Positions 11,253 to 41,780 of a stretch of DNA of 64,000 nucleotides are shown here, piece after piece. The translations under genes and the position numbers were made by a program. The notes under the pieces are model-generated. The model was given only the letters and a program-made list of their open reading frames with translations, made no database searches and was not told where the DNA came from. The first letter of the stretch is position 1. The number at the start of each line of letters is the position of its first letter. The DNA is from Winogradskyella costae. Its GTDB lineage: Bacteria; Bacteroidota; Bacteroidia; Flavobacteriales; Flavobacteriaceae. The stretch is from positions 1,488,001 to 1,552,000 of the forward strand of contig NZ_JABFDK010000001.1 in assembly GCF_013403865.1 (NCBI RefSeq), given 5' to 3'.

Positions 11253-12272
11253 TTATTTTGAAGAATCCCTGACAATCAATTCCGCATCTAAAATGATTTT
11301 ATTTAAGCTTTGTTTTATCTCACCTTTAGAAACATGATTTAAAAAGGTCTCTGCTGCAATACGTCCTATATCCTTACTGTGTTGATCAATACTTGTAATA
11401 GATGGACTTACCAAAGATGTGAAAGGTTCATTACCAAAACCAACTAGTCGTATGTCGTTAGGGACGTGTATGCGATTCTCATTTAAAATCTGTAAGGCTC
11501 CAAGGGCCGCATTATCACTTGCAGCATAAACTGCATCTGGTCTATTTTTTAATTGAAGTAGTTTTTCCATTTCAATTCTACCATCTTCAAGTGTAAGAGA
11601 GCATTCAACAATAAGCGTATCATCAATAGGAAGCTTATTTTTCTTTAAAGCATCAACATAACCTCTAATTCTATTATTGAAAATTCGTGTTCGCCTATAG
11701 CCACCTATATGAGCAATGCGTTTACACCCCTTTTCAACCAAATGCTCAACGATGACATGGCTACTATCATAATCATTAATACCAACGTAATCTACATTAA
11801 GATCGTTTTCCCCGCGATCAAATAGTATTAAAGGAATACCATTAGACTTTATTTTTTCGTAATGCGATACATCAACAGTTTCATTAGCCATTGAAGCTAT
11901 AATACCATCGACTTGAGTGTATAAAAGCGTATCTATATTTTTACATTCTTTTTCAAAAGATTCGTTAGATTGGGTAATGATGATGTTGTAACCGGCTTTG
12001 TTAAGAACAGCCTCCATGTTTTCTAAAACGGAAGAAAAGAAGTTACTATTAGTTCGAGGCACAATAACACCTACCAAATTGGTTTTTCCCTTTCTTAAGG
12101 CACTTGCCAAATGATTAGGCTGGTAATCGAGTTCTTTAGCAACACGCTTAACGGCCCGCTTCGTTTTATCACTAATTCGCGAATCGTTATGCATTGCTTT
12201 GGAAACTGCTGCAGGTGAAATGTTTAGCTTGCTAGCAATGTCTTTTAGAGTTGTTCTTTTTTTATTCGCCAA
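11253..12272 (-). CDS. LacI family transcriptional regulator
   Basis: A 339-residue full-length LacI protein. The N-terminal helix-turn-helix (about residues 7-30, LKDIASKLNISPAAVSKAMHN) and hinge helix (YQPNHLASALRKGKTN) are followed by the periplasmic-binding-like sensor domain (VGVIVPRTNSNFFSSVL, DGIIASMA, LILFDRG, HIGGYRR, AASDNAALGALQILN, SPSITSIDQH). It is divergent from kdgK. Two strong palindromes in the shared 147-base region (12280-12309 and 12364-12383) carry the central CG step typical of LacI operators, so it probably controls itself and kdgK-eda. The ligand is likely a uronate intermediate, by context only. Confidence 0.93.
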   Translation of the reverse strand: MANKKRTTLKDIASKLNISPAAVSKAMHNDSRISDKTKRAVKRVAKELDYQPNHLASALRKGKTNLVGVIVPRTNSNFFSSVLENMEAVLNKAGYNIIITQSNESFEKECKNIDTLLYTQVDGIIASMANETVDVSHYEKIKSNGIPLILFDRGENDLNVDYVGINDYDSSHVIVEHLVEKGCKRIAHIGGYRRTRIFNNRIRGYVDALKKNKLPIDDTLIVECSLTLEDGRIEMEKLLQLKNRPDAVYAASDNAALGALQILNENRIHVPNDIRLVGFGNEPFTSLVSPSITSIDQHSKDIGRIAAETFLNHVSKGEIKQSLNKIILDAELIVRDSSK

Positions 12273-12279
12273 GTTTTTA

Positions 12280-12309
12280 TATATTTGCTTAATCGATTAA
12301 GCAAATATA
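12280..12309. promoter_or_regulatory. LacI operator 1, 30-bp perfect palindrome
   Basis: The stretch is fully self-complementary around the CG at 12294-12295, with core TTGCTTAATCGATTAAGCAA. It begins 8 bases upstream of the lacI start codon, so it overlaps the probable lacI promoter or leader. The same 20-bp core recurs at 12364-12383, with centres 79 bp apart. Confidence 0.85.
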
Positions 12310-12363
12310 GTATTTTAACTATAAGAATCAAAGCTGCTAGGTTTTGATTTATTTTTAACTACG

Positions 12364-12383
12364 TTGCTTAATCGATTAAGCAA
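12364..12383. promoter_or_regulatory. LacI operator 2 before kdgK
   Basis: A perfect 20-bp palindrome, TTGCTTAATCGATTAAGCAA, identical in core to operator 1, ends 37 bases before the kdgK ATG. A pair of identical sites 79 bp apart between divergent genes suggests DNA looping or joint control of lacI and kdgK. Confidence 0.85.
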
Positions 12384-12419
12384 ATAAAGATTTTATAACT
12401 AAATAAACAAATATTCAGA

Positions 12420-13466
12420 ATGAAAAAAGTAGTCACTTTTGGAGAAATTATGCTAAGATTAGCACCTCAAGGTTTTTTAAGATTTTCTCAAGCTAATAAT
12501 TTTGATGCCATCTATGGTGGTGGAGAATCTAATGTTGCAGTTTCTTTAGCAAACTATGGTGTACCTGTTGATTTTGTAACAAGGTTACCAAAGAATGATA
12601 TCGGAGAATGTGCGATGATGGAAATGCGTAAAAGAGGAGTTGGTGTCGATAAAATTATTTATGGTGGAGACCGATTGGGGATTTATTTCTTAGAAACAGG
12701 TGCTGTAAGTAGAGGTTCTAAAGTAGTTTACGATAGAGCACACTCTGCAATTTCTGAAATTACACCAGGAATGGTAGATTGGAAAGCTGTTTTTAAAGAT
12801 GTGGCCTGGTTTCATTGGACAGGTATTACTCCAGCAATTTCTCAAGGTGCAGCAGATGCATGTTTAGAAGCTGTAAAAATAGCTAGCGAAATGGGTGTTA
12901 CGATTTCTACAGATTTAAATTACAGAGCTAAACTTTGGACATTTTGTGATGAAGCTCACAGAGAGAAAATAATGACAGAATTAACATCGTATTGTGATGT
13001 TATTTTAGGAAATGAAGAAGATGCTGAAAAACATTTTAATATAAAGCCAGAAGGTTTAGATATTACAACGCAAGGGCACGATGTAAAAGCAGAAGCATTC
13101 TTATCCGTTTGTAAGCAAATGATGGAAAAATTTCCAAGAGCTAAAAAAGTAATTACGACATTAAGAGGTTCAATTTCTGCATCACACAATACTTGGGCTG
13201 GTGTATTGTACGATGGTAAAAAAATGTACGAAACGCGTCAGTATCAAATTACAGATATTGTGGATCGTGTAGGTGGTGGAGATTCATTTATGGGTGGATT
13301 AATCTATGGTTTGCTAAAATATCCTGAAGATGATCAAAACGCGTTAGACTTTGCTGTTGCGGCATCATGTTTAAAACACACGATAAAAGGTGATGCTAAC
13401 TTAGTTACTGTTTCTGAGGTTGAAAAACTAATGGGAGGTGATGCATCTGGGCGTGTAGCACGTTAA
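12420..13466 (+). CDS. kdgK: 2-keto-3-deoxygluconate (KDG) kinase, PfkB family
   Basis: A 348-residue cytoplasmic sugar kinase that phosphorylates KDG to KDPG with ATP. The PfkB fold is recognised from the N-terminal GEIMLRLAP, the substrate-side GGGESNVAVSLANYG motif, and the C-terminal anion-hole signature DRVGGGDSFMGGLIYGLL that carries the catalytic Asp. An internal KKVITTLRGS segment corresponds to the nucleotide-binding strand. Directly downstream is the aldolase that cleaves its product. Divergence from lacI and the operator at 12364 make induction by uronate metabolites likely. Length fits the family (about 310-350). Confidence 0.92.
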   Translation: MKKVVTFGEIMLRLAPQGFLRFSQANNFDAIYGGGESNVAVSLANYGVPVDFVTRLPKNDIGECAMMEMRKRGVGVDKIIYGGDRLGIYFLETGAVSRGSKVVYDRAHSAISEITPGMVDWKAVFKDVAWFHWTGITPAISQGAADACLEAVKIASEMGVTISTDLNYRAKLWTFCDEAHREKIMTELTSYCDVILGNEEDAEKHFNIKPEGLDITTQGHDVKAEAFLSVCKQMMEKFPRAKKVITTLRGSISASHNTWAGVLYDGKKMYETRQYQITDIVDRVGGGDSFMGGLIYGLLKYPEDDQNALDFAVAASCLKHTIKGDANLVTVSEVEKLMGGDASGRVAR

Positions 13467-13582
13467 TTAAATATTAATCAATAAAAATAAAAATCCTTCT
13501 AAAGCTTGTGTTGAACGTACGTGCATCGCTAAAATGATTTCGTAAGATCAACTGAAGAATAGGGGCGATTTAAGATAAGATT

Positions 13583-14251
13583 ATGGCAAATTATACAAGA
13601 ATAGAAGTCGCAAATGTTATGAAACAAACCGGAATGGTGCCTTTGTTTTATAATCCAGACATAGAAATTAGTAAAAAAGTAATCAAAGCTACTTACGATG
13701 GTGGTGCACGTTTACTAGAGTTTACAGCAAGAGGAGATTTTGCTCACGAAGTTTTTGGTGAGTTAAACAAATGGGTACTTAAAGAATTGCCAGGCATGAT
13801 TATGGGAGTTGGTTCTGTAACTGACGCAGCATCTGCCTCTCGTTTTATGGCACTGGGTGCCAACTTCATTGTAACACCTGTTTTAAGAGAAGATATCGCC
13901 ATTGTTTGTAATAGACGTAAAGTCGCTTGGTCACCAGGTTGTGGAACACTAACTGAAATTTGTAGAGCCGAAGAATTAGGATGTGAGGTTGTAAAATTAT
14001 TTCCGGGAGATATCTATGGTCCAGCATTTGTTAAAGCCATTAAAGGGCCGCAACCTTGGACAAGCGTTATGCCAACAGGTGGAGTATCGCCAACAAAAGA
14101 AAATTTAGAAGGTTGGTTTAAAGCCGGAGTAACATGTGTTGGTATGGGGTCTCAATTGATAGCAAAAGGTGCAGATGGTAGCTACGATTTAGCAAAAATT
14201 GAATCAGATACAAGAAATGCATTAAGTATTATTAGTGCTTTAAAATCATAA
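13583..14251 (+). CDS. eda: KDPG/KHG aldolase
   Basis: A 222-residue class I aldolase of the Entner-Doudoroff type, splitting KDPG into pyruvate and glyceraldehyde-3-phosphate. The Schiff-base lysine sits in EVVKLFPGDIYG. Other family marks are GTVTDAASA-like GSVTDAASASRFMALGANFIV, SPGCGTLTEI and the phosphate-binding PTGGVSP. It follows kdgK after a 116-base gap with no gene or clear terminator, so the two are probably co-transcribed. It completes the alginate monomer pathway encoded in this locus. Confidence 0.93.
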   Translation: MANYTRIEVANVMKQTGMVPLFYNPDIEISKKVIKATYDGGARLLEFTARGDFAHEVFGELNKWVLKELPGMIMGVGSVTDAASASRFMALGANFIVTPVLREDIAIVCNRRKVAWSPGCGTLTEICRAEELGCEVVKLFPGDIYGPAFVKAIKGPQPWTSVMPTGGVSPTKENLEGWFKAGVTCVGMGSQLIAKGADGSYDLAKIESDTRNALSIISALKS

Positions 14252-27166: not shown

Positions 27167-30100
27167 ATGAAACACATCTACCTTATTTTAAGTTCACTTG
27201 TCTTTTTTATTACTTTGCCAGCCCAAACTACTTGGCAAGAGTATACAAAAATAGCAGATTCTCTGCAGGTACAATTTCAATTTGATGTTGTAATAGCGCC
27301 AAGAGAGAAAGCAATTGAATTAGCTGCGGTAACTCAAAAAGATACCATTCCGTTTTTAAATTTATTGTTAGCAACGAGTAAAAATGAACGTTATGTAGAC
27401 AATCCTGAAATTAATAAACCGCTTTATAAAGCGCTTCAATCTCAAATTTTAGAACTCGAAGCACGCAACGCAAAACCAGAACGACTTTACCAAGCATATA
27501 GGCGCATGTATATTATTGCGCATAATTTTATTCGCAACATGGAGGATACAGAAGTCTATGTCGGTAAATCTATAGCATATCATTATAAATGTGAGACTAT
27601 TGATTCTTTAGTTTTATTTAAAGGTTTACACACTTCTGGCGTTATATCTCGAGAAGTTGGTAAACTTAATAAATCGGTAGAGGTATTTAAGGAAGCAGAG
27701 CGTTTTTATGGTTTTATGACGGCAAAAGACACCAATGTAATGGCCAGTGTTTATAAAGATTTGGCCATGGTTTATCACTACAATTTTTTAAATATTCCTT
27801 CTGAACGATTAAAATATGTAAAAAAAGCAGAAGCCTTATTTAATAGTGTTAGTAGACCTAACTTAGATTATTTATTAGGTGTATATAATGATCTTTCAGA
27901 ATATGAAAAGCGTCAAGGTAATTACAAAATTGCAGCAGGTTATTTAAATAAAGGTCTAGACATCTATTTAAATAATAGAGAAGAGGCTCAACGCTATAGA
28001 ATGGGTAAAATAGGAGTGAAAAAAGAACTGCAATTTCATTCTGCCTTAATGGAAATTTACAGAGAAACAGGACAAGAAGATTTTGTGCTTTATCATTTTG
28101 AGGAAATGAAGAAAATAAATTCTAAACACACATTAGATGATATTGAGTCGGACTTTTATGCAACAGCGCACATTATACTTGCAAAATATTACGGTTTTAG
28201 GGATAATGATAAAGCTTTAGAATATCTGAATGAAGGTTTGAAGATTCATAAAAACTTAAGGTTTGATAAATTTGAAGAAGAGTTTACAATAGCAAGAATT
28301 AATATTTATATCGATCAACAGCGATTTCTTGAAGCAGAAGAACTTTTAAAAGCGTTAGAGGCTGTAGAAGATTTACCCCAGTTTATTAAAAAAGATATAC
28401 TAATCCTTAATGCATCATTAAATTTAAAAAACAATAATAGCGATGTAGCGTACAGTTATATTAATAAATTGATTCATGGTTTTTCTGATGCCAATAACGC
28501 GTTAGATATTAAAACAATTACATATAATGAGTTTACACCAAGTCTTGTTTTAAACGATACAGAACTTATTTTAGAAGTTGTAAATGATCTTAATGACGCG
28601 CCTTTTAAAGATGATAAGATAAACCATAATTTACATGTGTTAGCTTTAAAACAATTTGAATCTAATTTTAACCAAGAATTTTTAAATGATAAACTTAAAA
28701 AAAGCTATGATCAAATAGGATTATATTTTTACAATAAAGCTTCTGAAGGACTTCTTAGAGAGGAAGATAAAATTCGTTTCTTGAATTTTACGGAAGCTAT
28801 TGAAGCTAAATTTTTATTAAACACCTTTCTCGCAAATAGAATAACATCAGGAAAAACTGAGGCAGATTTAACAGTTGAAAAAGAGCAACAAATACGATCA
28901 AATATTACGTATTTAAAAAAGAAAAATATAACGACGAAATCAGATAGCTTAAGCCAGCTTATTTTTGAAGAAAATGTAAAACTCAAGTCTATTGAAGAAC
29001 AATTGCAGAAAGATGGTTTTAATATTTCTAAGCTAGTTAATATAGCACATCCGCTTCAAAATCTTGAAACCTTTAAAGATCGTTATATTATTAAGTTTAA
29101 AGTTGTAGACAACCAATTATTTAGAGTCCTCTGTTACGATAATAAAATAGCAATTAAAAAAATAGGGGATTACAAGAGTTTAAGCTCTAAAGTTGAAGGT
29201 CTTGTTTCTGAATTAAAGGACATCAATGTTCCAGTTGCAACTATAAAGCAACATTCTGAAAGTCTATATAACACTTTACTCAAAGATGTAGATATTTTGG
29301 CTATTGATAATGTTCATATTATACCAGATGGTATTTTACATTATTTACCATTTGAGCTTTTAGTGACTAATAACGACTACATTCTTAATGAAACGAAAGT
29401 GAGTTATGCATCTTCTTTAAGCTTTATAAATTCTCCCATACATAACAATGAAAAAAACGGAAAAATTGCTTTATTTGCTCCTTCATATGCATTGTTTGCT
29501 CCATCAGATAAGCAACTAGCAGTAAGAGGTGAGCCTTATCATTTAGAAGGAGCTTTAAAGGAAGTTTCTTCCATCTCTAAGCTATTTGAAAATAGTGATG
29601 TTTATGTAAATGATAAAGCGTCAAAAGGATCATTTAAATCATTGTCTCCTGATTATTCTATTTTGCATTTGTCAATGCATTCCTTTTTAAACGATGACGA
29701 CTCTGAGTTGAGTAGTTTAGTGTTTTCGGACGATGATGAGGATCATGAACTTTACATTTCAGAATTATATGGCTTAAATCTCAATGCAGACATGGTGGTT
29801 TTAAGTGCTTGTAATACAGGAGTTGGAGAGTTGAAAACAGGAAAAGGTATTGTGTCTATGAATACCGCTTTTACAGCTGCAGGAGTACCTTCCGTATTAT
29901 CAAGTTTGTGGAGCGCACCAGATGATGCTACACAAGAAATTATGATTGCATTTTATAAGCATCTTAAAGAGGGTTCTGATAAATCTGAAGCATTACAATT
30001 GGCAAAACAAGATTATCTAAATACTACGGAAAATGAATTATTAAAGCATCCTTATTATTGGGCTGGTTTTGTTGTTTCTGGTGATATTTCATATATTGCA

Positions 30101-30199
30101 ACTAAAGAATCGGATGATATTTGGTATTTTTTAGGAGGCTTTGGATTAGTGCTATTAGCTTTTGTATTTTTTAAAAGTAAGAAGAAGCAAGCGGCATAA
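27167..30199 (+). CDS. Secreted TPR-CHAT (caspase-like) protein with C-terminal membrane anchor
   Basis: A 1010-residue protein. A signal peptide (about 1-20, ending LPAQ) is followed by many TPR-like helical pairs (about 30-560), a helical linker and a CHAT domain (about 680-970). The caspase-like dyad is intact: the His838 region in HLSMHSF and Cys882 in LSACNTGVGELKTGKG, followed by GVPSVLSSLWSAPDDAT. A final membrane helix with a basic tail (FLGGFGLVLLAFVFFKSKKKQ) anchors it. With signal peptide and basic end in this order, the protease domain should face the periplasm. It is convergent with, and three bases from, the TPR anti-sigma-like gene. Substrates are unknown; regulated cleavage of neighbouring envelope proteins is speculative. 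Confidence 0.87.
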   Translation: MKHIYLILSSLVFFITLPAQTTWQEYTKIADSLQVQFQFDVVIAPREKAIELAAVTQKDTIPFLNLLLATSKNERYVDNPEINKPLYKALQSQILELEARNAKPERLYQAYRRMYIIAHNFIRNMEDTEVYVGKSIAYHYKCETIDSLVLFKGLHTSGVISREVGKLNKSVEVFKEAERFYGFMTAKDTNVMASVYKDLAMVYHYNFLNIPSERLKYVKKAEALFNSVSRPNLDYLLGVYNDLSEYEKRQGNYKIAAGYLNKGLDIYLNNREEAQRYRMGKIGVKKELQFHSALMEIYRETGQEDFVLYHFEEMKKINSKHTLDDIESDFYATAHIILAKYYGFRDNDKALEYLNEGLKIHKNLRFDKFEEEFTIARINIYIDQQRFLEAEELLKALEAVEDLPQFIKKDILILNASLNLKNNNSDVAYSYINKLIHGFSDANNALDIKTITYNEFTPSLVLNDTELILEVVNDLNDAPFKDDKINHNLHVLALKQFESNFNQEFLNDKLKKSYDQIGLYFYNKASEGLLREEDKIRFLNFTEAIEAKFLLNTFLANRITSGKTEADLTVEKEQQIRSNITYLKKKNITTKSDSLSQLIFEENVKLKSIEEQLQKDGFNISKLVNIAHPLQNLETFKDRYIIKFKVVDNQLFRVLCYDNKIAIKKIGDYKSLSSKVEGLVSELKDINVPVATIKQHSESLYNTLLKDVDILAIDNVHIIPDGILHYLPFELLVTNNDYILNETKVSYASSLSFINSPIHNNEKNGKIALFAPSYALFAPSDKQLAVRGEPYHLEGALKEVSSISKLFENSDVYVNDKASKGSFKSLSPDYSILHLSMHSFLNDDDSELSSLVFSDDDEDHELYISELYGLNLNADMVVLSACNTGVGELKTGKGIVSMNTAFTAAGVPSVLSSLWSAPDDATQEIMIAFYKHLKEGSDKSEALQLAKQDYLNTTENELLKHPYYWAGFVVSGDISYIATKESDDIWYFLGGFGLVLLAFVFFKSKKKQAA

Positions 30200-30202
30200 C
30201 TT

Positions 30203-30919
30203 CTAATCCAATTGTTCTAATAGTTGCTCAGCGGCATTTTTCTTATAAGTACCATTTTCTATCACTGTGTTCAAACTCACTCTAGCTTTTTTAGTGTTAT
30301 TAGTTTTAATATAAGCTAGTGCTAAGTACCATTGCTGTTGGACTTTTAGTTTTTGTGGTAGCTCATTATTCTGTTCCAATATTTTTATAGCTTCGTTATT
30401 CTTATTCAATTGTAATAAAACATTGGCTTTGTAAAACGAAATAGTAGCATTGTCACTTTCCTTTAAAATAGCATCAAAATAATTGAGTGCTTCTTTATAG
30501 TCTTTAGCTTCATAAGAAATAAAAGCTTTTGATTTTAAATCATCAGAGGCTTCTCCACGTACTATTGGGTGCACTACATTCTCAAAAGGTGTAAAATTGT
30601 TAGCGAAAAGAGCGTCGTTATCTAAACTTGATGATCCAAAGTACCAAAAACTAGGCAGTGCCAATAGTATAATAATGGAAGCGGCAACAAGCCATTTTAT
30701 ATATGTTTTTGACGATGTTTTTGTAGAATTTTCAAAAGACTGTAGTTCTTCTTTTAGTTGTGTTTGTGTATCTTTTTTGATAACCGTTTTAAGATTCTCT
30801 TGGAATTTAAACGTTTTTTTAAATTCAGGATCTGTGGCCAATAAATGGTCAAATTCCTTTTGCGCTTCAGGGGAAAGCGTTTTAGAAAAATAGTGCGCTA
30901 TGAGTTTGTCTTTAGTCAT
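30203..30919 (-). CDS. Anti-sigma-like membrane protein with periplasmic TPR domain
   Basis: A 238-residue protein lying two bases downstream of the sigma factor gene on the same strand. Residues 1-70 are a cytoplasmic helical domain (SPEAQKEFDHLLATDPEFKKTF) like the N-terminus of anti-sigma proteins. One membrane helix follows (about 74-92, WLVAASIIILLALPSFWYFG), then a periplasmic part with TPR repeats (YEAKDYKEALNYFDAILKES, NNEAIKILEQN). No HxxxCxxC zinc motif is present, so assignment rests on topology and operon position. The TPRs could sense the secreted CHAT-TPR protein; that is inference. Confidence 0.75.
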   Translation of the reverse strand: MTKDKLIAHYFSKTLSPEAQKEFDHLLATDPEFKKTFKFQENLKTVIKKDTQTQLKEELQSFENSTKTSSKTYIKWLVAASIIILLALPSFWYFGSSSLDNDALFANNFTPFENVVHPIVRGEASDDLKSKAFISYEAKDYKEALNYFDAILKESDNATISFYKANVLLQLNKNNEAIKILEQNNELPQKLKVQQQWYLALAYIKTNNTKKARVSLNTVIENGTYKKNAAEQLLEQLD

Positions 30920-30921
30920 AA

Positions 30922-31473
30922 TTAGGGTTTAAAAATCAGGTCTTTAAGGGATTTTATACAACGCGATTTTTGGCTTTTTGCTACATCTTTATTAGAATAG
31001 TTTAATTCATTTGTAATTTCATCAATAGTAAAACCTCTGTAATAGAATAGCGTTAATATGGCTTTACATTTTTCACCTAAACTTTTAAAGGCCATTTGTA
31101 ATTTTTGCTGATCTTCAGACAGATCTTCTATTAAATCTATAGTGTAATCAGTATCTATTTTTAAGCTGTCTAAAGTTGTATCCTCATCAATTGAATACAT
31201 ACTTTTTTGTTGCTTCAACCTTTTGTAAATCATGTATTTTCCAATACTAAAGAGATAGGTTTTTAATTCACTTTTTAAATGGTCTAATTTTCCATCAACA
31301 GCGTTATCATGCAACGCAATAATGGCATCTTGATAAATATCAATAATCGTTGCTTCATCTAAAGGATATTTTTTTGCAAATCCAATAAAAGCTGCCTTGT
31401 AATCTAAATAAACGGATTTCAGTGCTTCTGAATTTCGTTTTTTTAAAGCTTCAACAAGAACCTTATCTACCAT
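30922..31473 (-). CDS. ECF-like sigma-70 family RNA polymerase sigma factor
   Basis: A 183-residue sigma factor with region 2 (about 10-85, ATIIDIYQDAIIALHDN and the promoter-melting part LKTYLFSIGKYMIYKRLKQQ) and region 4 (about 125-180, LGEKCKAILTLFYYRGFTIDEIT, then a helix-turn-helix). It lacks regions 1.1 and 3, as ECF types do. The anti-sigma-like gene follows. On its own upstream side (minus strand, 31503 to 31475) lies GTTTACT-N15-ACACTAA, a motif shared with three neighbouring genes, suggesting autoregulation. The annotated ATG at 31473 lies directly at that motif, so either the message is leaderless or another promoter exists. Confidence 0.88.
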   Translation of the reverse strand: MVDKVLVEALKKRNSEALKSVYLDYKAAFIGFAKKYPLDEATIIDIYQDAIIALHDNAVDGKLDHLKSELKTYLFSIGKYMIYKRLKQQKSMYSIDEDTTLDSLKIDTDYTIDLIEDLSEDQQKLQMAFKSLGEKCKAILTLFYYRGFTIDEITNELNYSNKDVAKSQKSRCIKSLKDLIFKP

Positions 31474-31474
31474 A

Positions 31475-31503
31475 TTAGTGTCATTAAGTTTTCAAAAGTA
31501 AAC
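31475..31503 (-). promoter_or_regulatory. Putative ECF promoter motif, copy D, upstream of the sigma gene
   Basis: Read on the minus strand: GTTTACT (31503-31497), 15 bases, then ACACTAA (31481-31475). The same two blocks occur at 31540-31568, 32313-32340 and 36229-36256 in front of plus-strand genes of the cluster. A 7-mer plus 14-15 spacer plus 7-mer matches the geometry of ECF -35/-10 elements. Confidence 0.55.
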
Positions 31504-31539
31504 AACATAAATTAAAAATATAAAAAAGAACCAAGACAT

Positions 31540-31569
31540 GTTTACCTTTTTGATAATAAGGACACTAAA
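31540..31569 (+). promoter_or_regulatory. Putative ECF promoter motif, copy A
   Basis: GTTTACC (31540-31546), 15 bases starting with a T-run, then ACACTAAAG from 31562. It faces away from copy D in the shared 185-base region between the sigma gene and the lipoprotein at 31659. The downstream sequence AGAGAAATGAA is almost identical to that after copy B. The leader to the lipoprotein ATG would be about 85 bases. Confidence 0.6.
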
Positions 31570-31658
31570 GAGAAATGAATATAATGGCTTTGAAACTTAC
31601 TAGAATGGTAGTCAATTTTAAAAGTCATATTAATCGTCACTATTGAAAACATATAATT

Positions 31659-32222
31659 ATGAAATTTTTTAAAAAGGCAGTGGTTCTCAGTTTGGTTTTA
31701 GGGTTTACTTCATGTAATCAATCGGTTTCTGATAAAGAGAACGAAGAAATAAAAAACACTACAACTGAAATAATAGAAGAAGCGCCTAAAACAAACTCTA
31801 AGTTAGTAGGCAAAAGTTATGAGCAATATGGGGCACCATTTTGTGAGATACTAAATATAGATATTATAAAATCCGTTTTCCCTGATGCCACTGAAATAAA
31901 AACGAAAGAGGCAACAGATCGTTTAACACCAGAATGCGAAATTACATTTACGTCTAGTGAAGATCGTATGGGATTAATTTTGAAAGGCCAGCCTAGAAAA
32001 CATAACAACTTTAGTTTAGATTGGAAATTAGAGAATGAAAAAGGATGGTCTAAAATAGAAGGCTTAGGAGATGAAGCTTATTTCTTTCCATGGTTTAATG
32101 GAGCAAGTGTACTGGTGATGAAAAATGATGTTAGATACAGCTTGCTAATGAATAGCCAAAAGGAATCTGCAAAGGAAGATGCCATTGCAATAATGGAAGC
32201 TCTAGTTAAAACTATAGAGTAA
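31659..32222 (+). CDS. Lipoprotein of unknown function
   Basis: A 187-residue protein with a lipoprotein signal (LGFTSC, Cys near residue 19), a Glu/Thr-rich tether, and a compact domain of about 135 residues with two cysteines (APFCEILNIDIIKSVFPDATEI and PECEITFTSS) that may form a disulfide. It ends with KIEGLGDEAYFFPW and a helical tail. The overall look (cysteine, GLGDEAYF) recalls DUF3558-like envelope lipoproteins, but no function is assigned. It is the first gene behind motif copy A, divergent from the sigma gene. Confidence 0.78.
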   Translation: MKFFKKAVVLSLVLGFTSCNQSVSDKENEEIKNTTTEIIEEAPKTNSKLVGKSYEQYGAPFCEILNIDIIKSVFPDATEIKTKEATDRLTPECEITFTSSEDRMGLILKGQPRKHNNFSLDWKLENEKGWSKIEGLGDEAYFFPWFNGASVLVMKNDVRYSLLMNSQKESAKEDAIAIMEALVKTIE

Positions 32223-32312
32223 GAGTTGTTTTTTTAACCATTTATTGGTTAGTGTTTTTTTGAAATGATAATACAAGATGAGGTTGCTTTTAAAAAAAAA
32301 TGCAATTTCTAT

Positions 32313-32342
32313 GTTTACCTAGATCTAATTAGAACACTAAAG
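32313..32342 (+). promoter_or_regulatory. Putative ECF promoter motif, copy B
   Basis: GTTTACC (32313-32319), 14 bases, then ACACTAAAG (32334-32342) and again AGAAATGAA. It resembles copy A closely over the second block and the bases after it. If transcription starts just after the second block, the ATG at 32368 is a better translational start for the downstream gene than the ATG at 32347. Confidence 0.6.
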
Positions 32343-32367
32343 AGAAATGAACACAAACTCAATTCTC

Positions 32368-32850
32368 ATGAAAACACGTTTTACAATGATTTTTTCTATT
32401 GGCTTTATGCTATTAGCTTCTGCACAAAGTATAGATAAGCAAGTGGTTGCAACTGCAGGAAATACCTCTAGTAATGCATCGCACAAATTAACAACAACAA
32501 TTGGAGAGCCTATAGTTGGTTTAAAAAGTACAACCGTTAGTATTAGTCAAGGTTTTTTAGCCGGAGCTGTAACTAATGAAACACTCTCTATTGAAACATT
32601 AATTGATAGTCCTGCCGTAAAAATATTTCCTAATCCTGTTACAGACAGTGTGCATATAAGTATGCCAAATAACACAGAACAGGTTACAACAACAATTTAT
32701 GATATTACAGGGAAATTAATAACAGAACAGACTACAAATTCTGAATTACAAACTCTAAATGTTAGTGCTTTTAATAATGGAGTATACATGATACAGCTTC
32801 AGTTTAAGGACTCAAATAAAATAAAAACTTTTAAAATTATTAAAAAATAA
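32368..32850 (+). CDS. Small secreted protein with T9SS type A sorting domain
   Basis: A 160-residue protein with a signal peptide (ending about FMLLASAQ), a short passenger of about 65 residues (ATAGNTSSNASHKLTTTIGEP, LKSTTVSISQGF) and a T9SS type A C-terminal domain (KIFPNPVTDSVHISMPNNTE to MIQLQFKDSNKIKTFKIIKK). It should be exported across the outer membrane and attached or released. An alternative ATG at 32347 would add seven residues; the position of the putative promoter favours 32368. The gene is followed within five bases by a lipoprotein gene. Confidence 0.85.
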   Translation: MKTRFTMIFSIGFMLLASAQSIDKQVVATAGNTSSNASHKLTTTIGEPIVGLKSTTVSISQGFLAGAVTNETLSIETLIDSPAVKIFPNPVTDSVHISMPNNTEQVTTTIYDITGKLITEQTTNSELQTLNVSAFNNGVYMIQLQFKDSNKIKTFKIIKK

Positions 32851-32854
32851 AATT

Positions 32855-33370
32855 ATGAAAACACAATTTTTAAACATCACAAAAACAATTTTAGTAGCTC
32901 TTTTTATCTCAATGACATTTGTATCCTGTTCTTCTGATGATTCAGATGCACCAGATGATGACGGAGGAAGCGATGTAGAATTTTTCGCCAGAGTTAATGA
33001 TGGGCAATTTACCCCAGACGATGTTATAGCAATAGGCTCAGTAGGAGTTAATTTTTTTAGTATAACGGCTACAAAAGATAATGGCGAAAATGTAGACATT
33101 ACGATACCAAGTGTAGAGTTAGGTACTTATACGGCAACAGGAGATACCGATACTCAGGTTATTTCTACATATAGACTCAATGATACAAATCCAGCTTTAA
33201 GTACGTACACTGCAATGCAAGGCAGTGTAACCATTACAAGTAGCGAGCAAATTAGCTCTGTTTTGCGTAATGTAAAAGGAACTTTTTTCTTTACATATAC
33301 AAGAGACGATGAGCCACAGGTTTACGAGTTTACCGAAGGCGAATTTAATATTGATGTTCTCTACTTTTAA
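32855..33370 (+). CDS. Lipoprotein, DUF6252-like
   Basis: A 171-residue protein. A lipoprotein signal (FVSC, Cys near residue 25) precedes an acidic Asp/Ser-rich tether (SSDDSDAPDDDGGSD) typical of surface-exposed Bacteroidota lipoproteins. A beta-rich domain follows (FFARVNDGQFTPDD, ITIPSVELGTYTATG, VKGTFFFTY and a final FTEGEFNIDVLYF). The pattern resembles DUF6252 proteins, of unknown function. It is embedded between T9SS cargo and the fibre protein in one likely operon. Confidence 0.78.
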   Translation: MKTQFLNITKTILVALFISMTFVSCSSDDSDAPDDDGGSDVEFFARVNDGQFTPDDVIAIGSVGVNFFSITATKDNGENVDITIPSVELGTYTATGDTDTQVISTYRLNDTNPALSTYTAMQGSVTITSSEQISSVLRNVKGTFFFTYTRDDEPQVYEFTEGEFNIDVLYF

Positions 33371-33406
33371 TTCAAATCAATTATAAAACATCTAAATCAT
33401 TAACAA

Positions 33407-35479
33407 ATGAAAAAAATATTACAAACTATAGCATTTGCGTTATGCATTTGCTTAACCAGTTATGCTCAAAATAGACAATCAAACTTTATTAACTATCAAG
33501 GTGTGGCAAGTGATGCCTCTGGAGAGGTTATCTCAGAAACAGCTATAGCATTACAAATAGCCTTAAAATTTGGTAGCGAAACAGCAACAGCTAGCTATAT
33601 AGAAACACACAACCCAACTACCGATGCCAATGGTGTTTTTAGTCTTGAAATTGGTAATGGTACCTTAGTTTCTGGAGTTTATAATCCTAATGATTTTGGA
33701 TTTAATGCTAGTTATATAACCGTTTCTTTAAATGGATTAGAAATTGGAACTACTGAGTTAAAAGCTGTTCCATTTGCGTTAAGTTCACTAAAATCTGGAG
33801 ATAATTTATGGTATGGTGGTGGTGATTCTACTAATGGTTTCATTCAAAATGGAGTAACTAATGTTGTTATACAAGGAAGTCTAGGAGTTACACCAAATGG
33901 AGGCACAGCACCACAAGGAGCATATATAAACGAGTTTTCAACTGACGCTACTTTGGCAGGTAATAGTGATACAGCTCTACCAACAGAAAAAGCAGTAAAA
34001 ACTTATGTAGATAATGCGACAAGTGGTTCTGTTTCTAGGATAAATGATTTAATTGATGGGAAAACATCTAGTGAGTCTATATTTTTAGGTAATTCTTCTG
34101 GAAATGCAGAGACTTCTGGTTCTCAGAATACTGCAATTGGTAATGAAGCTTTACCATTATTAACCGATGGAAATCAGGTGACAGCAATTGGTCATTTTGC
34201 TCTTAATCAAAATACTACAGGTTCTAATAACATAGCTGTAGGTAGTTTTGCACTTCGATCTAATACTACAGGTTATTTAAATACTGCAGTTGGAACTTCT
34301 ACCATGTCGCTTAATGAAACAGGTTCTCACAATACAACATTAGGCTCTGATGCCCTTGACAATAATATAATCGGTTCTGGTAACGTAGCTTTGGGCTATC
34401 AAGCTGGAAAATTTGAAACAGGAAACAGCAAACTTTATATTTCTAATAACGGTACGTCTAACCCATTAATCTACGGTGAATTTGATAATAATATTTTAAG
34501 ATTCAATGGAACTACGGAAGCTAGAAGTTATTTCAATAGCCCAACCACAACAGATTTAATTCTAGGTGGTACTGCAAACACCACAGCAGGAGATGACGGT
34601 ATTATTTCTTCAGACCCTAAATATGCAGGTAGTGATATTTTTATTAGAAGTAACGATGCTGTAGTTATAGAGTTAGATATTGATGATAATGAAACTGGCC
34701 AGTTTCAGATATTAGCTGGTGATGGAGATCTTCTCTTTGAGGTTAATGAAGAGGACTATATTTTATTAAACGGAACGCCTGTTAGAGGTGCGGCAAATGC
34801 AGATCCAGATCTTATTTTGGGAGGTACGTCTAATAGTGCGTCGGGTGATAACGGGATAATTTCTTCAGATCCAAATTATGCTGGTAGCGATGTATTCATT
34901 AGAAGTAATGATGCTGTAGTTATTGAACTAGATAGTGATAACAATGAAGACGGAGAATTTGAAATAAAATCAGGTGCTGGAGAGGTTATTTTTTCGATTT
35001 TAGAGGACGGATTTACTATATGTAAACAAATTACTGTAGATGAAAAAATTTATACAGAAGATCTTACTGTTTTTGGTGATTTTAATAATTACTCAGATAG
35101 ACGCCTTAAAAAAGATATCGAAAGTTTATCTTATGGTTTAGATGAGGTTTTGCAATTACAACCAAAAGCTTATAATTGGAAACACAAAACACAAGAGTAT
35201 AAATCTTTAGGGTTAATTGCTCAAGACGTACAAGGAATCATTAAAGAGATTGTAACTGAGCAGGATGATGAACAAAAAACGTTATCAGTAAGTTATTTGG
35301 AATTAATCCCAGTACTCATAAACGCCATAAAAGAGCAACAAACACAGATAGAAACTTTAAAAACAACAAACACTACCAAAGATGTTGCGTTAGCTGAGAT
35401 TTTAAAACGTGTAAAAACTTTAGAGTATACAGCAGAATTAAATAAAAACAAAGGGAATAGTTTAAGTAGTGCCAACTAA
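33407..35479 (+). CDS. Secreted trimeric-fibre-like protein with S74 intramolecular chaperone
   Basis: A 690-residue protein with a signal peptide (ending near residue 21, SYAQ). Residues about 220-330 hold YadA-head-like repeats (NTAIGNEAL, TAIGHFALNQNTTGSNNIAVGSFALRS in outline, NTTLGSDALD, NVALGYQAG). Residues about 385-550 contain two copies of a module of about 80 residues beginning DLILGGT and including FIRSNDAVVIELD. The C-terminal 120 residues are a peptidase S74/tail-fibre chaperone domain (YSDRRLKKDIESL with the Ser/Asp pair, LGLIAQDVQ, YLELIPVLINAIKEQQ) ending in a coiled coil. By analogy, the protein trimerises and cuts off its own chaperone. Confidence 0.87.
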   Translation: MKKILQTIAFALCICLTSYAQNRQSNFINYQGVASDASGEVISETAIALQIALKFGSETATASYIETHNPTTDANGVFSLEIGNGTLVSGVYNPNDFGFNASYITVSLNGLEIGTTELKAVPFALSSLKSGDNLWYGGGDSTNGFIQNGVTNVVIQGSLGVTPNGGTAPQGAYINEFSTDATLAGNSDTALPTEKAVKTYVDNATSGSVSRINDLIDGKTSSESIFLGNSSGNAETSGSQNTAIGNEALPLLTDGNQVTAIGHFALNQNTTGSNNIAVGSFALRSNTTGYLNTAVGTSTMSLNETGSHNTTLGSDALDNNIIGSGNVALGYQAGKFETGNSKLYISNNGTSNPLIYGEFDNNILRFNGTTEARSYFNSPTTTDLILGGTANTTAGDDGIISSDPKYAGSDIFIRSNDAVVIELDIDDNETGQFQILAGDGDLLFEVNEEDYILLNGTPVRGAANADPDLILGGTSNSASGDNGIISSDPNYAGSDVFIRSNDAVVIELDSDNNEDGEFEIKSGAGEVIFSILEDGFTICKQITVDEKIYTEDLTVFGDFNNYSDRRLKKDIESLSYGLDEVLQLQPKAYNWKHKTQEYKSLGLIAQDVQGIIKEIVTEQDDEQKTLSVSYLELIPVLINAIKEQQTQIETLKTTNTTKDVALAEILKRVKTLEYTAELNKNKGNSLSSAN

Positions 35480-35567
35480 ATAATTAAACAACAAATTGCA
35501 TTTTTTATAGAAATAAAAAGCGTAATCATCATTAAAAACAGCAATAAAACAAACAAAATTTTAAACC

Positions 35568-36083
35568 ATGAAAAACTTTAAATTAATAACAGTATTTGTA
35601 TTCATTAGTGTCTTAGGTGTATTTACCGTTAACGCACAAACAGAGACTAAAATAGGTGGCTTTTTAGCCTATGGTACAGAAATAGAAAATATAGGGATTG
35701 GTGTCAATGCAGAATTTCCAATTATGGATAAACTTACTATTGCGCCTTCCTTTATTTACTATTTACCAAAAGAAGAGAGCTTTATTAAAGTGAATTGGTT
35801 TGAGTTTAATGCCAATGCCAATTACTATTTTATGGATGAAGAAAACATTTCTGTTTATGGTATTGGAGGTTTAAATTACTCTAGTGTCAAAGTCTCTTAT
35901 GATGGTAATAATTCGTTTTTAGGAGAAAATTACTCATCAAGTGATGGCAGAATAGGTCTAAACTTAGGTGCAGGTGCTAACTTTAATATTGGTAGTAAAA
36001 TTGAACCTTTTGCAGAATTAAAATATGTCATCATTGATGGTGGACAGTTAGTTATAGCAGCTGGTGTAAAATATAAATTATAA
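35568..36083 (+). CDS. Small outer-membrane beta-barrel protein
   Basis: A 171-residue protein with a signal peptide (ending VNAQ) and alternating amphipathic strands (IGGFLAYGTEIENIGIGVNAEF, FNANANYYFM, YGIGGLNYSSVKVS, LNLGAGANFNIGSKIEPFAELKYV) ending AAGVKYKL. This looks like an eight-stranded OmpX/OmpW-type barrel. It follows the fibre gene by 88 bases and is closed by a strong terminator at 36123-36160. It might serve as surface docking partner, but nothing in the sequence proves that. Confidence 0.82.
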   Translation: MKNFKLITVFVFISVLGVFTVNAQTETKIGGFLAYGTEIENIGIGVNAEFPIMDKLTIAPSFIYYLPKEESFIKVNWFEFNANANYYFMDEENISVYGIGGLNYSSVKVSYDGNNSFLGENYSSSDGRIGLNLGAGANFNIGSKIEPFAELKYVIIDGGQLVIAAGVKYKL

Positions 36084-36122
36084 GCAATCAGCTTTTTTAG
36101 CCCTTTAAGACTATTTAAATTT

Positions 36123-36160
36123 TAAAAAACTCAGGATAATATAAAGTCCTGAGTTTTTTT
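36123..36160 (+). terminator. Intrinsic terminator after the OMP gene
   Basis: AAAAAACTCAGGA and TCCTGAGTTTTTTT form a long stem around a loop of about 10 bases and end in seven T residues. It closes the 31659-36083 plus-strand gene series before the next promoter motif. Confidence 0.9.
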
Positions 36161-36228
36161 ATGCCCTAGTATTTAGACGTACTAAAAAGTAAGATTTCAA
36201 ATTATTAATAAAAAAAATAAAGAATTGT

Positions 36229-36257
36229 GTTTACCTTTTTTTAAAACAGACACTAAA
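36229..36257 (+). promoter_or_regulatory. Putative ECF promoter motif, copy C
   Basis: GTTTACC (36229-36235), 14 bases beginning with a T-run, then ACACTAAA (36250-36257). It follows a terminator and precedes the DUF4412 gene at 36297, so it marks a new transcription unit with the same promoter type as the earlier genes of the cluster. Confidence 0.6.
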
Positions 36258-36296
36258 TAGAAAATACCGAGTTGTTAAAACGTTAATGCAATGCAT

Positions 36297-37130
36297 ATGA
36301 AAGCACTAAAACCACTATTTCTTACACTTGTTTTTCTATTAATGAGTAATGCTGTTCAAGCGCAGTTTTGGAAGAAATTAGCAAAAAAAGCAGAGAAAAA
36401 AATTGAAAGAGAAGCCGAAAATCGCGCAGAAAAACGCGTTAATAAAAATATAGACAAAGTATTTGACGAAGCAGAAGACGGCATAGATAATATAGATCTA
36501 AAAACGGAAAAAGTAGATGTAAAACTTCCGGATAGCTATCATTTTGAATGGAAATATAGCATGAAAACGGAAACTCAAGATAAAGAGATTAACATGTATT
36601 ATATGTTAAAGAAAGAAGCAGCATACATTGGTATAATTGTGATTTTAGATGAGTTTAATACTTCAAAAAATAGCAAAACTATAATGGATAGTGACAGAGG
36701 CGCGTTTATCACTTTTATGGATGTAAATGGTCAAAAAATATACAGAGCGATGGAGCTTCCTGAAGCAGATCCTTTAGAAGAAAACACCAATAATTTCACA
36801 TTAGAAAAAACAGATACTAAAGAGATTTTAGGATATAGTTGTCAAGGTTATAAAACCCAAATAAACGACGGAACCATGCATTTTTATATGGCAAATAATG
36901 CACCAATTAGTTTGCATTCTGCATTTGGTAAAAATCAAAGCATGCCTAAAGGCTTTAATAAAGAACTTCTAACAAATTTAAAAGATGGTCTTATGTTAGA
37001 AGCCGAATTTACTAGTGATAAAAACAGCAATAACAATTTTAAAACCACATGTACCGAGCTTAAGAAAGTAGATTATACCTTAGACGTAAGTCAGTATGGT
37101 TCTTTAAGTGAATTAGGTAGTAAAAATTAA
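36297..37130 (+). CDS. DUF4412 exported protein with basic coiled-coil segment
   Basis: A 277-residue protein with a signal peptide (ending AVQAQ) followed by a highly charged helix (KKLAKKAEKKIEREAENR, then EKRVNKNIDKVFDEAEDGIDN) and a DUF4412 domain (LPDSYHFEWKYSMKTETQD, TKEILGYSCQGYKT, MHFYMANNAPIS, PKGFNKELLTNLKDGLMLEAEF). ATGs at 36291 and 36297 are both possible. A paralogue without the charged helix is at 41064. Function is not known; both flank the giant T9SS protein at 37153. Confidence 0.8.
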   Translation: MKALKPLFLTLVFLLMSNAVQAQFWKKLAKKAEKKIEREAENRAEKRVNKNIDKVFDEAEDGIDNIDLKTEKVDVKLPDSYHFEWKYSMKTETQDKEINMYYMLKKEAAYIGIIVILDEFNTSKNSKTIMDSDRGAFITFMDVNGQKIYRAMELPEADPLEENTNNFTLEKTDTKEILGYSCQGYKTQINDGTMHFYMANNAPISLHSAFGKNQSMPKGFNKELLTNLKDGLMLEAEFTSDKNSNNNFKTTCTELKKVDYTLDVSQYGSLSELGSKN

Positions 37131-41063: not shown

Positions 41064-41780
41064 ATGAAAACTCTAAATTTTTTAAAAAGCAGTCTATTTG
41101 TAGTTTGTTTCTTTATGCTACAAACTGTTTTTGCGCAATTCGGAAAAGCAAATAAAGTTAAGCTTCCAGAGTCTTATAACTTTGAGTACATCTATAAACT
41201 TAAATTAACCCATAAAAAAGGAGATGTAAACCTGGATTACTATCTAAAGGAAGATGCTAACTACTTTGGTTTTGATACTGCTGAAATGACAAAAGGAAGT
41301 GCGGATACTAACATATTTATGGTCATGGATGCTGAGCTCGAAATTACAGCCATGTTTATGGAAATGATGGGTAAAAAAGTGGTTCAGAAAACAAAATTAA
41401 AAACCTCAGATTTTACTTCTAAGCAAGAGGATATGTCAGATTATGATTTTAAACAAATCGATTCAAAAACTATTAATGGTTATGACTGCGAAGGCTATTT
41501 GAGTGAAAATGATAAAGTAAAAATTATCTATTATATTACGGATGATGTGCCTGTGAGTTTCAATCAAATGTTTGGAGATAATGTTAAGAATCTTCCAAAA
41601 GGATTTAATGCAGATATGATGAAAAAATACGCTGAGAAAGGCTTAATGATGGAAATGATTTATGAAGATAAAAAGAAATCCAAAAATAATATCACCATGG
41701 AATGCACCAGTTTGGAGAAAACAGATTTTTCAATTGATACCACAAAATATGGTTCTATGATGGGAGTATTTGGAGGTTAA
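41064..41780 (+). CDS. DUF4412 exported protein
   Basis: A 238-residue protein with a signal peptide (ending TVFAQ) and a DUF4412 domain (LPESYNFEYIYKLKLTHKKGD, DFKQIDSKTINGYDCEGY, YYITDDVPVSFNQMFGDNVK, LPKGFNADMMKKYAEKGLMMEMIYED). It is clearly paralogous to the protein at 36297. Its end overlaps the end of the convergent histidine kinase gene by four bases. Function unknown. Confidence 0.83.
   Translation: MKTLNFLKSSLFVVCFFMLQTVFAQFGKANKVKLPESYNFEYIYKLKLTHKKGDVNLDYYLKEDANYFGFDTAEMTKGSADTNIFMVMDAELEITAMFMEMMGKKVVQKTKLKTSDFTSKQEDMSDYDFKQIDSKTINGYDCEGYLSENDKVKIIYYITDDVPVSFNQMFGDNVKNLPKGFNADMMKKYAEKGLMMEMIYEDKKKSKNNITMECTSLEKTDFSIDTTKYGSMMGVFGG

Follow-up and report, generated by a model that had tools for sequence, protein, structure and literature searches.

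The window analysed here is a 64,000-nt stretch of the 4.13-Mb genome of Winogradskyella costae. It contains a cluster in which genes for an extracytoplasmic function (ECF) sigma factor, a membrane protein with tetratricopeptide repeats (TPR), and a caspase-like protein with a CHAT domain are accompanied by genes for surface and secreted proteins, and in which a two-block motif, GTTTAC followed by ACACTAA, occurs in four copies, D, A, B, and C. The sigma-related genes and the motif copies are given below, where L066-L069 stand for the loci of the four closest relatives and T9SS for the type IX secretion system.

27167..30199, + strand: TPR-CHAT caspase-like protein, 1010 aa, with a signal-peptide-like start, TPR, a CHAT domain with a His-Cys dyad, and a C-terminal transmembrane-like stretch
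30203..30919, − strand: membrane anti-sigma-like protein, with an N-terminal helical part, a hydrophobic helix (residues 75-94), a stalk with N114 and R121, and a TPR domain
30922..31473, − strand: ECF sigma factor, 183 aa (TIGR02937, 61.5 bits, cut-off 42.9)
31475..31503, − strand: motif copy D, N16, promoter-like, one base before the sigma start codon; kept in L066-L069
31515..31522, − strand: TATATTTT, matching the housekeeping −7 element TAnnTTTG at 5 of 6 positions and lying 11 nt upstream of GTTTAC in copy D
31540..31568, + strand: motif copy A, N16; kept in L067 and L069, degenerate in L068, not found in L066
32313..32340, + strand: motif copy B, N15, the lowest score; kept in L066 and L069
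36122..36165, + strand: terminator-like hairpin with a T-run, between the B and C units, from folding
36229..36256, + strand: motif copy C, N15; kept in L066-L068

An earlier note on this DNA had described four copies, and direct inspection of the sequence found them at the places and on the strands given there. The spacer had to be corrected: GTTTAC and ACACTAA are separated by 15 bases in copies B and C, and by 16 in copies A and D, and the N14/15 pattern of the note finds two of the four copies. The common tract of A and B after ACACTAA is AGAGAAATGAA. Folding confirmed the hairpin ahead of copy C (14 base pairs in 36122-36165, −17.5 kcal/mol, z −7.3); a simple terminator scan of positions 31400-36400 had found none. 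A sigma-70 consensus scan of the same interval gave 16 sites versus a shuffle mean of 21.8, i.e., no excess.

A genome-wide search, which the earlier note had proposed, confined the N15-16 form to the cluster: GTTTAC-N15-16-ACACTAA has exactly four matches in 4.13 Mb, all inside the cluster and within 4.8 kb of each other. With a wider spacer, N14-17, there were six matches in the genome and four in its reversed control, and the N14-15 pattern matched the dinucleotide-shuffled window 0.01 times on average. A relaxed form, TGTTWAC-N16-17-YAYTAA, gave 17 matches in the genome versus 6 in the reversed control. These comprise the four cluster sites and 13 others; since 11 of the 13 lie inside open reading frames (ORFs) of at least 100 aa and one lies 13 nt before an ORF (the last is in no such ORF), the regulon of W. 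costae looks local to the cluster. When the window was scanned with a matrix built from 20 sites of relatives, window excluded, copies C, A, D, and B took ranks 1-4 (24.4, 23.4, 20.8, and 13.1), with the next match at 12.2. Between the sites, the four closest relatives differ in the genes they carry; copy D is kept in all four, C in three, and B in two, and A is kept in two and degenerate in a third. An additional site stands ahead of the large T9SS gene of L069.

The position of the motif relative to the sigma gene was followed through relatives. In a family set of 149 genomes, 124 had a match to the sigma protein at E ≤ 0.001, and at E ≤ 1e-25 there were 27 loci in 22 genomes, window included. 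The 26 loci besides the window (L037-L062, ~20 kb each, one shorter) made up the orthologue set; L063 and L065 were excluded from the counts, and L063-L065 from the score-14 scan. We found that in 20 of 26 loci the sigma start codon is preceded by GTTWAC at 26-30 nt, the sigma starts of L038, L050, and L062 having been shifted to a later in-frame ATG for this count. At the same distance it was found before none of 560 other mechanical ORFs of at least 100 aa, which were drawn from 29 loci and include chance ORFs. The 20 aligned sites read GTTWAC, mostly YTTTT, then NYAYTAA, with a spacer of 15 in 17, 16 in two, and 17 in one; the −10 part fits less well in L042, L050, L058, and L060. The score-14 matrix scan of the 26 loci gave 80 matches, training sites included, versus 14 in reversed sequence.

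A second set consisted of the best 80 named loci of 520 relatives, the closest being from Winogradskyella bathintestinalis and W. ludwigii, and 54 of these 80 have the motif 26-30 nt before the sigma start. Thirteen further loci (L180-L192) were chosen by the anti-sigma profile and scanned at a cut-off score of 15. The motif was at the sigma gene in L181, L184, L186, L189, L190, and L191 (in L186 and L190 the sigma start was read later than the ORF start) and 54 nt before it in L192; it was not at the sigma gene in L180, L182, L183, L185, L187, and L188. Five of these loci (L183-L186 and L188) come from other families, and two of the five have the motif at the sigma gene. L180 holds a second sigma/anti-sigma pair of this kind from the W. 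costae genome itself (C11:1582000-1601900); it lies ~39 kb beyond the end of the window, has a CHAT gene at a distance of ~5 kb, and differs in its upstream sequence.

The matrix scan of the second set covered 75 loci, L071, L108, L123, L130, and L140 having been removed as duplicates of training loci. At a score of 16 it produced 185 matches versus 15 in reversed sequence, 41 of them at sigma genes and 144 elsewhere. Non-sigma matches stood 15-60 nt before an ORF of at least 80 aa in 93 of 144 cases (control, 1 of 15), 84 of the 93 at 15-35 nt, and fell inside ORFs of at least 150 aa in 26 of 144 cases versus 13 of 15 in the control. Thirteen matches inside the sigma gene of several relatives, in an LTLFYYRG-like coding stretch, were set aside as coding coincidences; they are within the 185 and the 144 and outside the 93. 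By a simple rule, a signal-peptide-like N-terminus was present in 83 of the 93 target proteins versus 383 of 850 other genes (p 3e-17). The Pfam tally of the targets, restricted to the first 25 of 42 families, was DUF4412 (15), OmpA (12), DUF748 (8), S74 chaperone (6), T9SS tail (6), and YadA head (5), with two Mur ligases and two methyltransferases as well. Three motif copies were also seen within 4 kb at G107 C17:120162-124164 (L146), on a contig other than that of the module, perhaps marking a distant target cluster.

The sigma protein matched the sigma70-ECF model above cut-off and so belongs to the ECF (group IV) sigma factors. A two-block promoter with a spacer of about 16 nt is an ECF-like feature, and a promoter-like site of this form, with a spacer of ~16 nt, precedes the sigma's own operon. 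Over the 149 family genomes, a strict pattern, GTTWACCTTTN12-13YAYWAA, had 50 matches in the 22 genomes that carry a close sigma and 34 in the remaining 127 (hand tally). At position 162, in the recognition helix, GTTTAC-type sigmas have K in 51 of 53 cases and GTTAAC-type sigmas in 6 of 20 (Fisher p 1e-8, shared descent uncorrected), and E occurs there only in sigmas with GTTAAC or without the motif. The stretch around K162 presumably contacts DNA; the alignment to E. coli RpoE has a gap in this helix, and, ungapped, K162 would face G168 of RpoE (by eye). The promoter thus appears to vary with its sigma.

Sequence comparison thus suggests that the motif is a conserved ECF promoter, GTTWAC-YTTTT, 15-16 nt, NYAYTAA. 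The dedicated ECF-sigma regulon of surface and secreted proteins proposed in the earlier note is supported by the conserved position at sigma genes, by recurrence before genes for exported proteins, and by the scarcity of reversed matches, and is further backed by the larger number of pattern matches in close-sigma genomes and by the association between recognition helix and −35 block. Promoter function is a strong inference from these data, and we hold with high confidence that the four copies are promoters of an ECF regulon. The repeated signal is very probably the on-switch of one gene set in many marine bacteria.

The genes that would be switched on in the window are the following.

31659..32222, + strand: lipoprotein-like gene, 90 nt downstream of copy A, no Pfam match, lipobox-like N-terminus by eye
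32368..32850, + strand: small T9SS-sorted protein (Por_Secre_tail)
32855..33370, + strand: DUF6252 protein (PF19765)
33407..35479, + strand: fibre-like protein with an S74 chaperone end (PF13884)
35568..36083, + strand: outer-membrane beta-barrel (PF13505)
36297..37130, + strand: DUF4412 protein, start as in L066-L068
37153..40968, + strand: large T9SS-sorted protein of the C unit (Por_Secre_tail, DUF7619)
41064..41780, + strand: second gene similar to DUF4412 targets, by BLAST from relatives' targets, possibly the end of the C unit; no NCBIfam match

We infer three units, with A comprising the lipoprotein, B the small T9SS protein, the DUF6252 protein, the fibre, and the outer-membrane protein, and C the DUF4412 protein and the large T9SS protein. 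By the usual target spacing, ATG 32368 (27 nt after B) is a more likely start of the small T9SS protein than 32347 (6 nt after B). The N-terminus of the fibre-like protein is weakly similar to the mosaic adhesive trimer fibres of Bdellovibrio (26.5 bits, below the cut-off of 60).

The TPR membrane gene follows the sigma gene co-directionally and within 100 nt in 78 of the 80 named loci; in the other two, L111 and L129, a shorter unmatched ORF occupies that place. The earlier note had called its product anti-sigma-like, in agreement with gene order and with the helix at residues 75-94, hydrophobic by eye; the profile searches speak against it. No recognised anti-sigma domain was found (no Pfam anti-sigma family matched, and the best NCBIfam model, NF047528, reached 20 bits versus a cut-off of 200), and the best fold-search matches of the structure model were TPR proteins. 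An anti-sigma function is predicted from gene order and topology. In the stalk between the membrane helix and the TPR domain, N114 and R121 occur without exception in the 99 sequences aligned, the alignment sets of this protein (99) and of CHAT (94) excluding L062-L065 and the five duplicates. The stalk stretch has no helix in the structure model (mean confidence 83 overall and 72-78 in the stalk). Invariance alone is not the mark of a cleavage site, because Y136, W197, and Y198 of the TPR part are invariant too. The juxtamembrane stalk, residues 104-122 of the protein (window 30919-30206), is a candidate cleavage or docking site. Of 395 genomes sampled across the phylum, 53 have a relative of the protein. 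Among PDB sequences, its profile collected 49 distinct entries at E up to 0.1, by name mostly TPR, PPR, and similar repeats and none of them Csx30, whose presence in the library was unchecked.

The earlier note had used CHAT only as a location of the cluster. The domain matched PF12770 with 196 bits (cut-off 24) at residues 698-974 of the searched protein, for which start 27164, one residue longer than ATG 27167, was used. A CHAT gene lies within 5.5 kb of the sigma gene in 76 of 80 loci, and in 62 of 80 it is convergent and within 300 nt (by BLAST, with the CHAT protein of the window as query). Of 94 aligned copies, 93 have the dyad, and the exception is a fragment of 335 aa in L116; the C-terminal transmembrane-like stretch is found in 83 of 94, and a hydrophobic N-terminus in 79 of 94. 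In L066 and L067, the two closest relatives, CHAT is replaced by one in inverted orientation that BLAST aligned only over the C-terminal part (40-41% identity); sigma and anti-sigma there are 96-97% and 87-91% identical to the window proteins. By these comparisons, CHAT is a conserved third member of the module. In several loci, including L082, L086, L120, and L125, a motif-bearing lipoprotein-like gene (~210-260 aa) stands before CHAT at ~14.1-15.0 kb; its product is a possible ligand or regulator of CHAT, and four examples had no Pfam match above cut-off.

These elements can be assembled into the following scheme. The four copies would be promoters (−35 T-GTTWAC-YTTTT, −10 NYAYTAA, 15-16 bases apart) of the ECF sigma encoded at 30922-31473, which would drive units A, B, and C of exported proteins and, by autoregulation, the sigma/anti-sigma operon. 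The TPR protein probably tethers the sigma to the inner membrane. CHAT, predicted from its C-terminal anchor to face the periplasm, probably senses an envelope cue through its variable N-terminal part and probably clips the anti-sigma stalk around N114-R121; the released sigma may then let the cell change its surface fibres and adhesins.

That CHAT is the releasing protease is suggested by its linkage, its dyad, its predicted topology, and the invariant stalk residues. The alternative is that CHAT is an output of the regulon or an unrelated effector merely encoded nearby, with the usual site-1 and site-2 proteases releasing the anti-sigma. It agrees with the placement of CHAT itself: of 69 testable loci, 23 have a motif in the 1.2 kb upstream of its gene, in 20 cases ahead of a lipoprotein-like gene, and the reversed control has none. 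An activator may, however, well sit in its own regulon. Two loci count against release by CHAT and call for caution as to its role: in L145 no CHAT was found in 20.5 kb, yet the anti-sigma is kept with R121, and in L116 (Polaribacter) CHAT is broken into at least two pieces (12158-13979), while sigma and anti-sigma stay open and R121 is kept. (The other loci without CHAT in range are L076 and L138, short contig pieces with none there, and L142, where it lies further off on the other side.) The linkage in 76 of 80 loci, the kept dyad, the invariant stalk residues, and the anchor on the same predicted side of the membrane as the stalk argue against the alternative. We consider it a serious but lesser possibility, and put the chances that CHAT is the activating protease at about even.

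For the motif itself, a number of results weigh against the promoter reading. The reversed window reaches a chance score of 16.8, higher than the 13.1 of copy B, which is therefore the weakest copy; its support comes from the exact core and from its retention in L066 and L069. GTTWAC is missing from the expected place in 29 of 102 distinct sigmas. In Aquimarina, 14 of 16 loci are without the motif at sigma, so autoregulation is, by sequence, not universal; in 12 of the 14 the motif stands at another place in the locus, ahead of targets or of the unit leading to CHAT. The reversed strict pattern had 13 matches in the 22 close-sigma genomes and 86 in the 127 others (hand tally), so its value as a control is rough; genomes with the sigma have more forward than reversed matches, and genomes without it have fewer. 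The strict pattern is missing altogether from seven of the 22. The K162 association ignores phylogeny, and the six GTTAAC-type sigmas mentioned above keep K.

A further point concerns the sigma start codon. The caveat of the earlier note that copy D abuts it is true, and the arrangement is conserved: the −10 block ends no more than two bases from the sigma start codon in 20 of 20 aligned sites, and targets mostly lie 15-35 nt away. A −10 that overlaps or abuts a start codon appears odd for an ordinary promoter. An mRNA driven from it by the sigma would either have no leader or begin within the sigma ORF and so favour the anti-sigma. For Flavobacterium psychrophilum, PMC9723704 gives 5.5% leaderless mRNAs and a median leader of 24 nt. 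Because an element like the housekeeping −7 (at least 5 of 6 positions, in the 45 nt before the motif) precedes 59 of 70 sigma sites versus 38 of 93 target sites, the sigma gene may have a basal promoter, in the window at TATATTTT, with the motif inside its leader.

Both the −7-like element, present in the window too, and the motif's end at the start codon would fit an operator for another DNA-binding protein, lying in the leader of a sigma gene driven by a housekeeping promoter. The two-block form with a spacer of 15-16, generally known as ECF-like, the recognition-helix association of this very sigma, the greater frequency of the pattern in close-sigma genomes, and the distance of most targets (15-35 nt downstream, a normal leader) all argue against such an operator, and we regard it as improbable. 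Chance or repeat-derived similarity could be invoked in an AT-rich genome with relaxed matches inside genes, but it is very unlikely given the 0 of 560 ORFs, the matrix ranking, the reversed-sequence controls, the persistence of the copies in close relatives despite altered gene content, and the occurrence of the motif in loci of other families (two of five), and its probability is close to nil.

The explanation as a whole, with four ECF promoters, a membrane-held sigma, and release by CHAT, is in our judgement probable. A more far-reaching version, which we put forward tentatively and think rather less likely than its opposite, is a stand-alone envelope relay of Bacteroidota, in which a periplasmic CHAT receptor with an exchangeable sensor half would cut the anti-sigma at its invariant juxtamembrane stalk and so turn on a local, fast-changing surface set of fibres, adhesins, and lipoproteins, and which would contain a built-in brake. 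The brake would lie in the sigma promoter ending at the start codon, whose transcripts would be leaderless or without the sigma start codon and would mainly make anti-sigma.

The site-1 protease of the RpoE-RseA-DegS system is a PDZ serine protease, unlike the site-1 candidate here, a CHAT cysteine protease. A membrane anti-sigma, expected proteolytic release, and autoregulation are common to the two systems, RpoE-RseA-DegS being mentioned also in PMC10028731. The closest known logic is that of DiCASP/Craspase (type III-E CRISPR, with the TPR-CHAT protein Csx29, Csx30, and CASP-sigma). According to PMC10028731, it shares with the present module a TPR-CHAT protease, an ECF sigma inhibitor, and sigma motifs in promoters of its own locus; its CHAT protein works with Cas7-11, is fired by target RNA, and has Csx30 as substrate. 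Unlike there, CHAT and the inhibitor have predicted membrane segments here, and the targets are surface proteins. No CRISPR effector was noticed among the ORFs of 22-46 kb, where no search aimed at Cas7-11 or CRISPR arrays was made, and PADLOC had no match for five cluster proteins. Apparently, the module is not CRISPR.

Other likenesses are more partial. The ECF54 group has CHAT-domain proteins in its context (CHAT/subtilase neighbours) but is treated, in PMC8999054, under ECFs without anti-sigma, with Geodermatophilus as the example, whereas a membrane anti-sigma-like gene is conserved here. Caspase/EACC2 neighbourhoods encode a caspase-type enzyme, an ECF sigma, and a TPR protein (DUF1822) together; they differ in their other domains, and the accessible section of PMC8195603 describes no membrane anti-sigma or promoter motif. 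The flavobacterial motif SM6 (PMC9723704) and SigP of P. gingivalis (PMC4800418) are similar in that ECF sigmas of Bacteroidota act on T9SS genes. SM6 differs by a CGT box in the −10 region and the SigP motif differs too, and neither is tied to CHAT in the excerpts of these two papers. Literature searches for CHAT domain with ECF sigma and anti-sigma found DiCASP as the sole match, and those for CHAT protease with sigma factor returned papers that were all on CRISPR by title. Searches for CHAT domain with sigma factor in Flavobacteri-, for Flavobacterium ECF sigma, anti-sigma, and promoter motif, and for DUF4412 found none. The pairing of a caspase with an ECF sigma is thus known in kind, and its membrane, apparently non-CRISPR version appears to be new; a matching group may already be defined in the ECF reclassification.

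If the scheme is true, a caspase-to-sigma logic known from a single CRISPR subtype would also operate as an envelope switch of wide distribution, and its promoter code, being readable, would allow the targets to be predicted. The motif gives access to DUF4412 and other surface proteins whose function is unknown, and the sigma gene provides a conserved promoter ending at a start codon as a case open to experiment.

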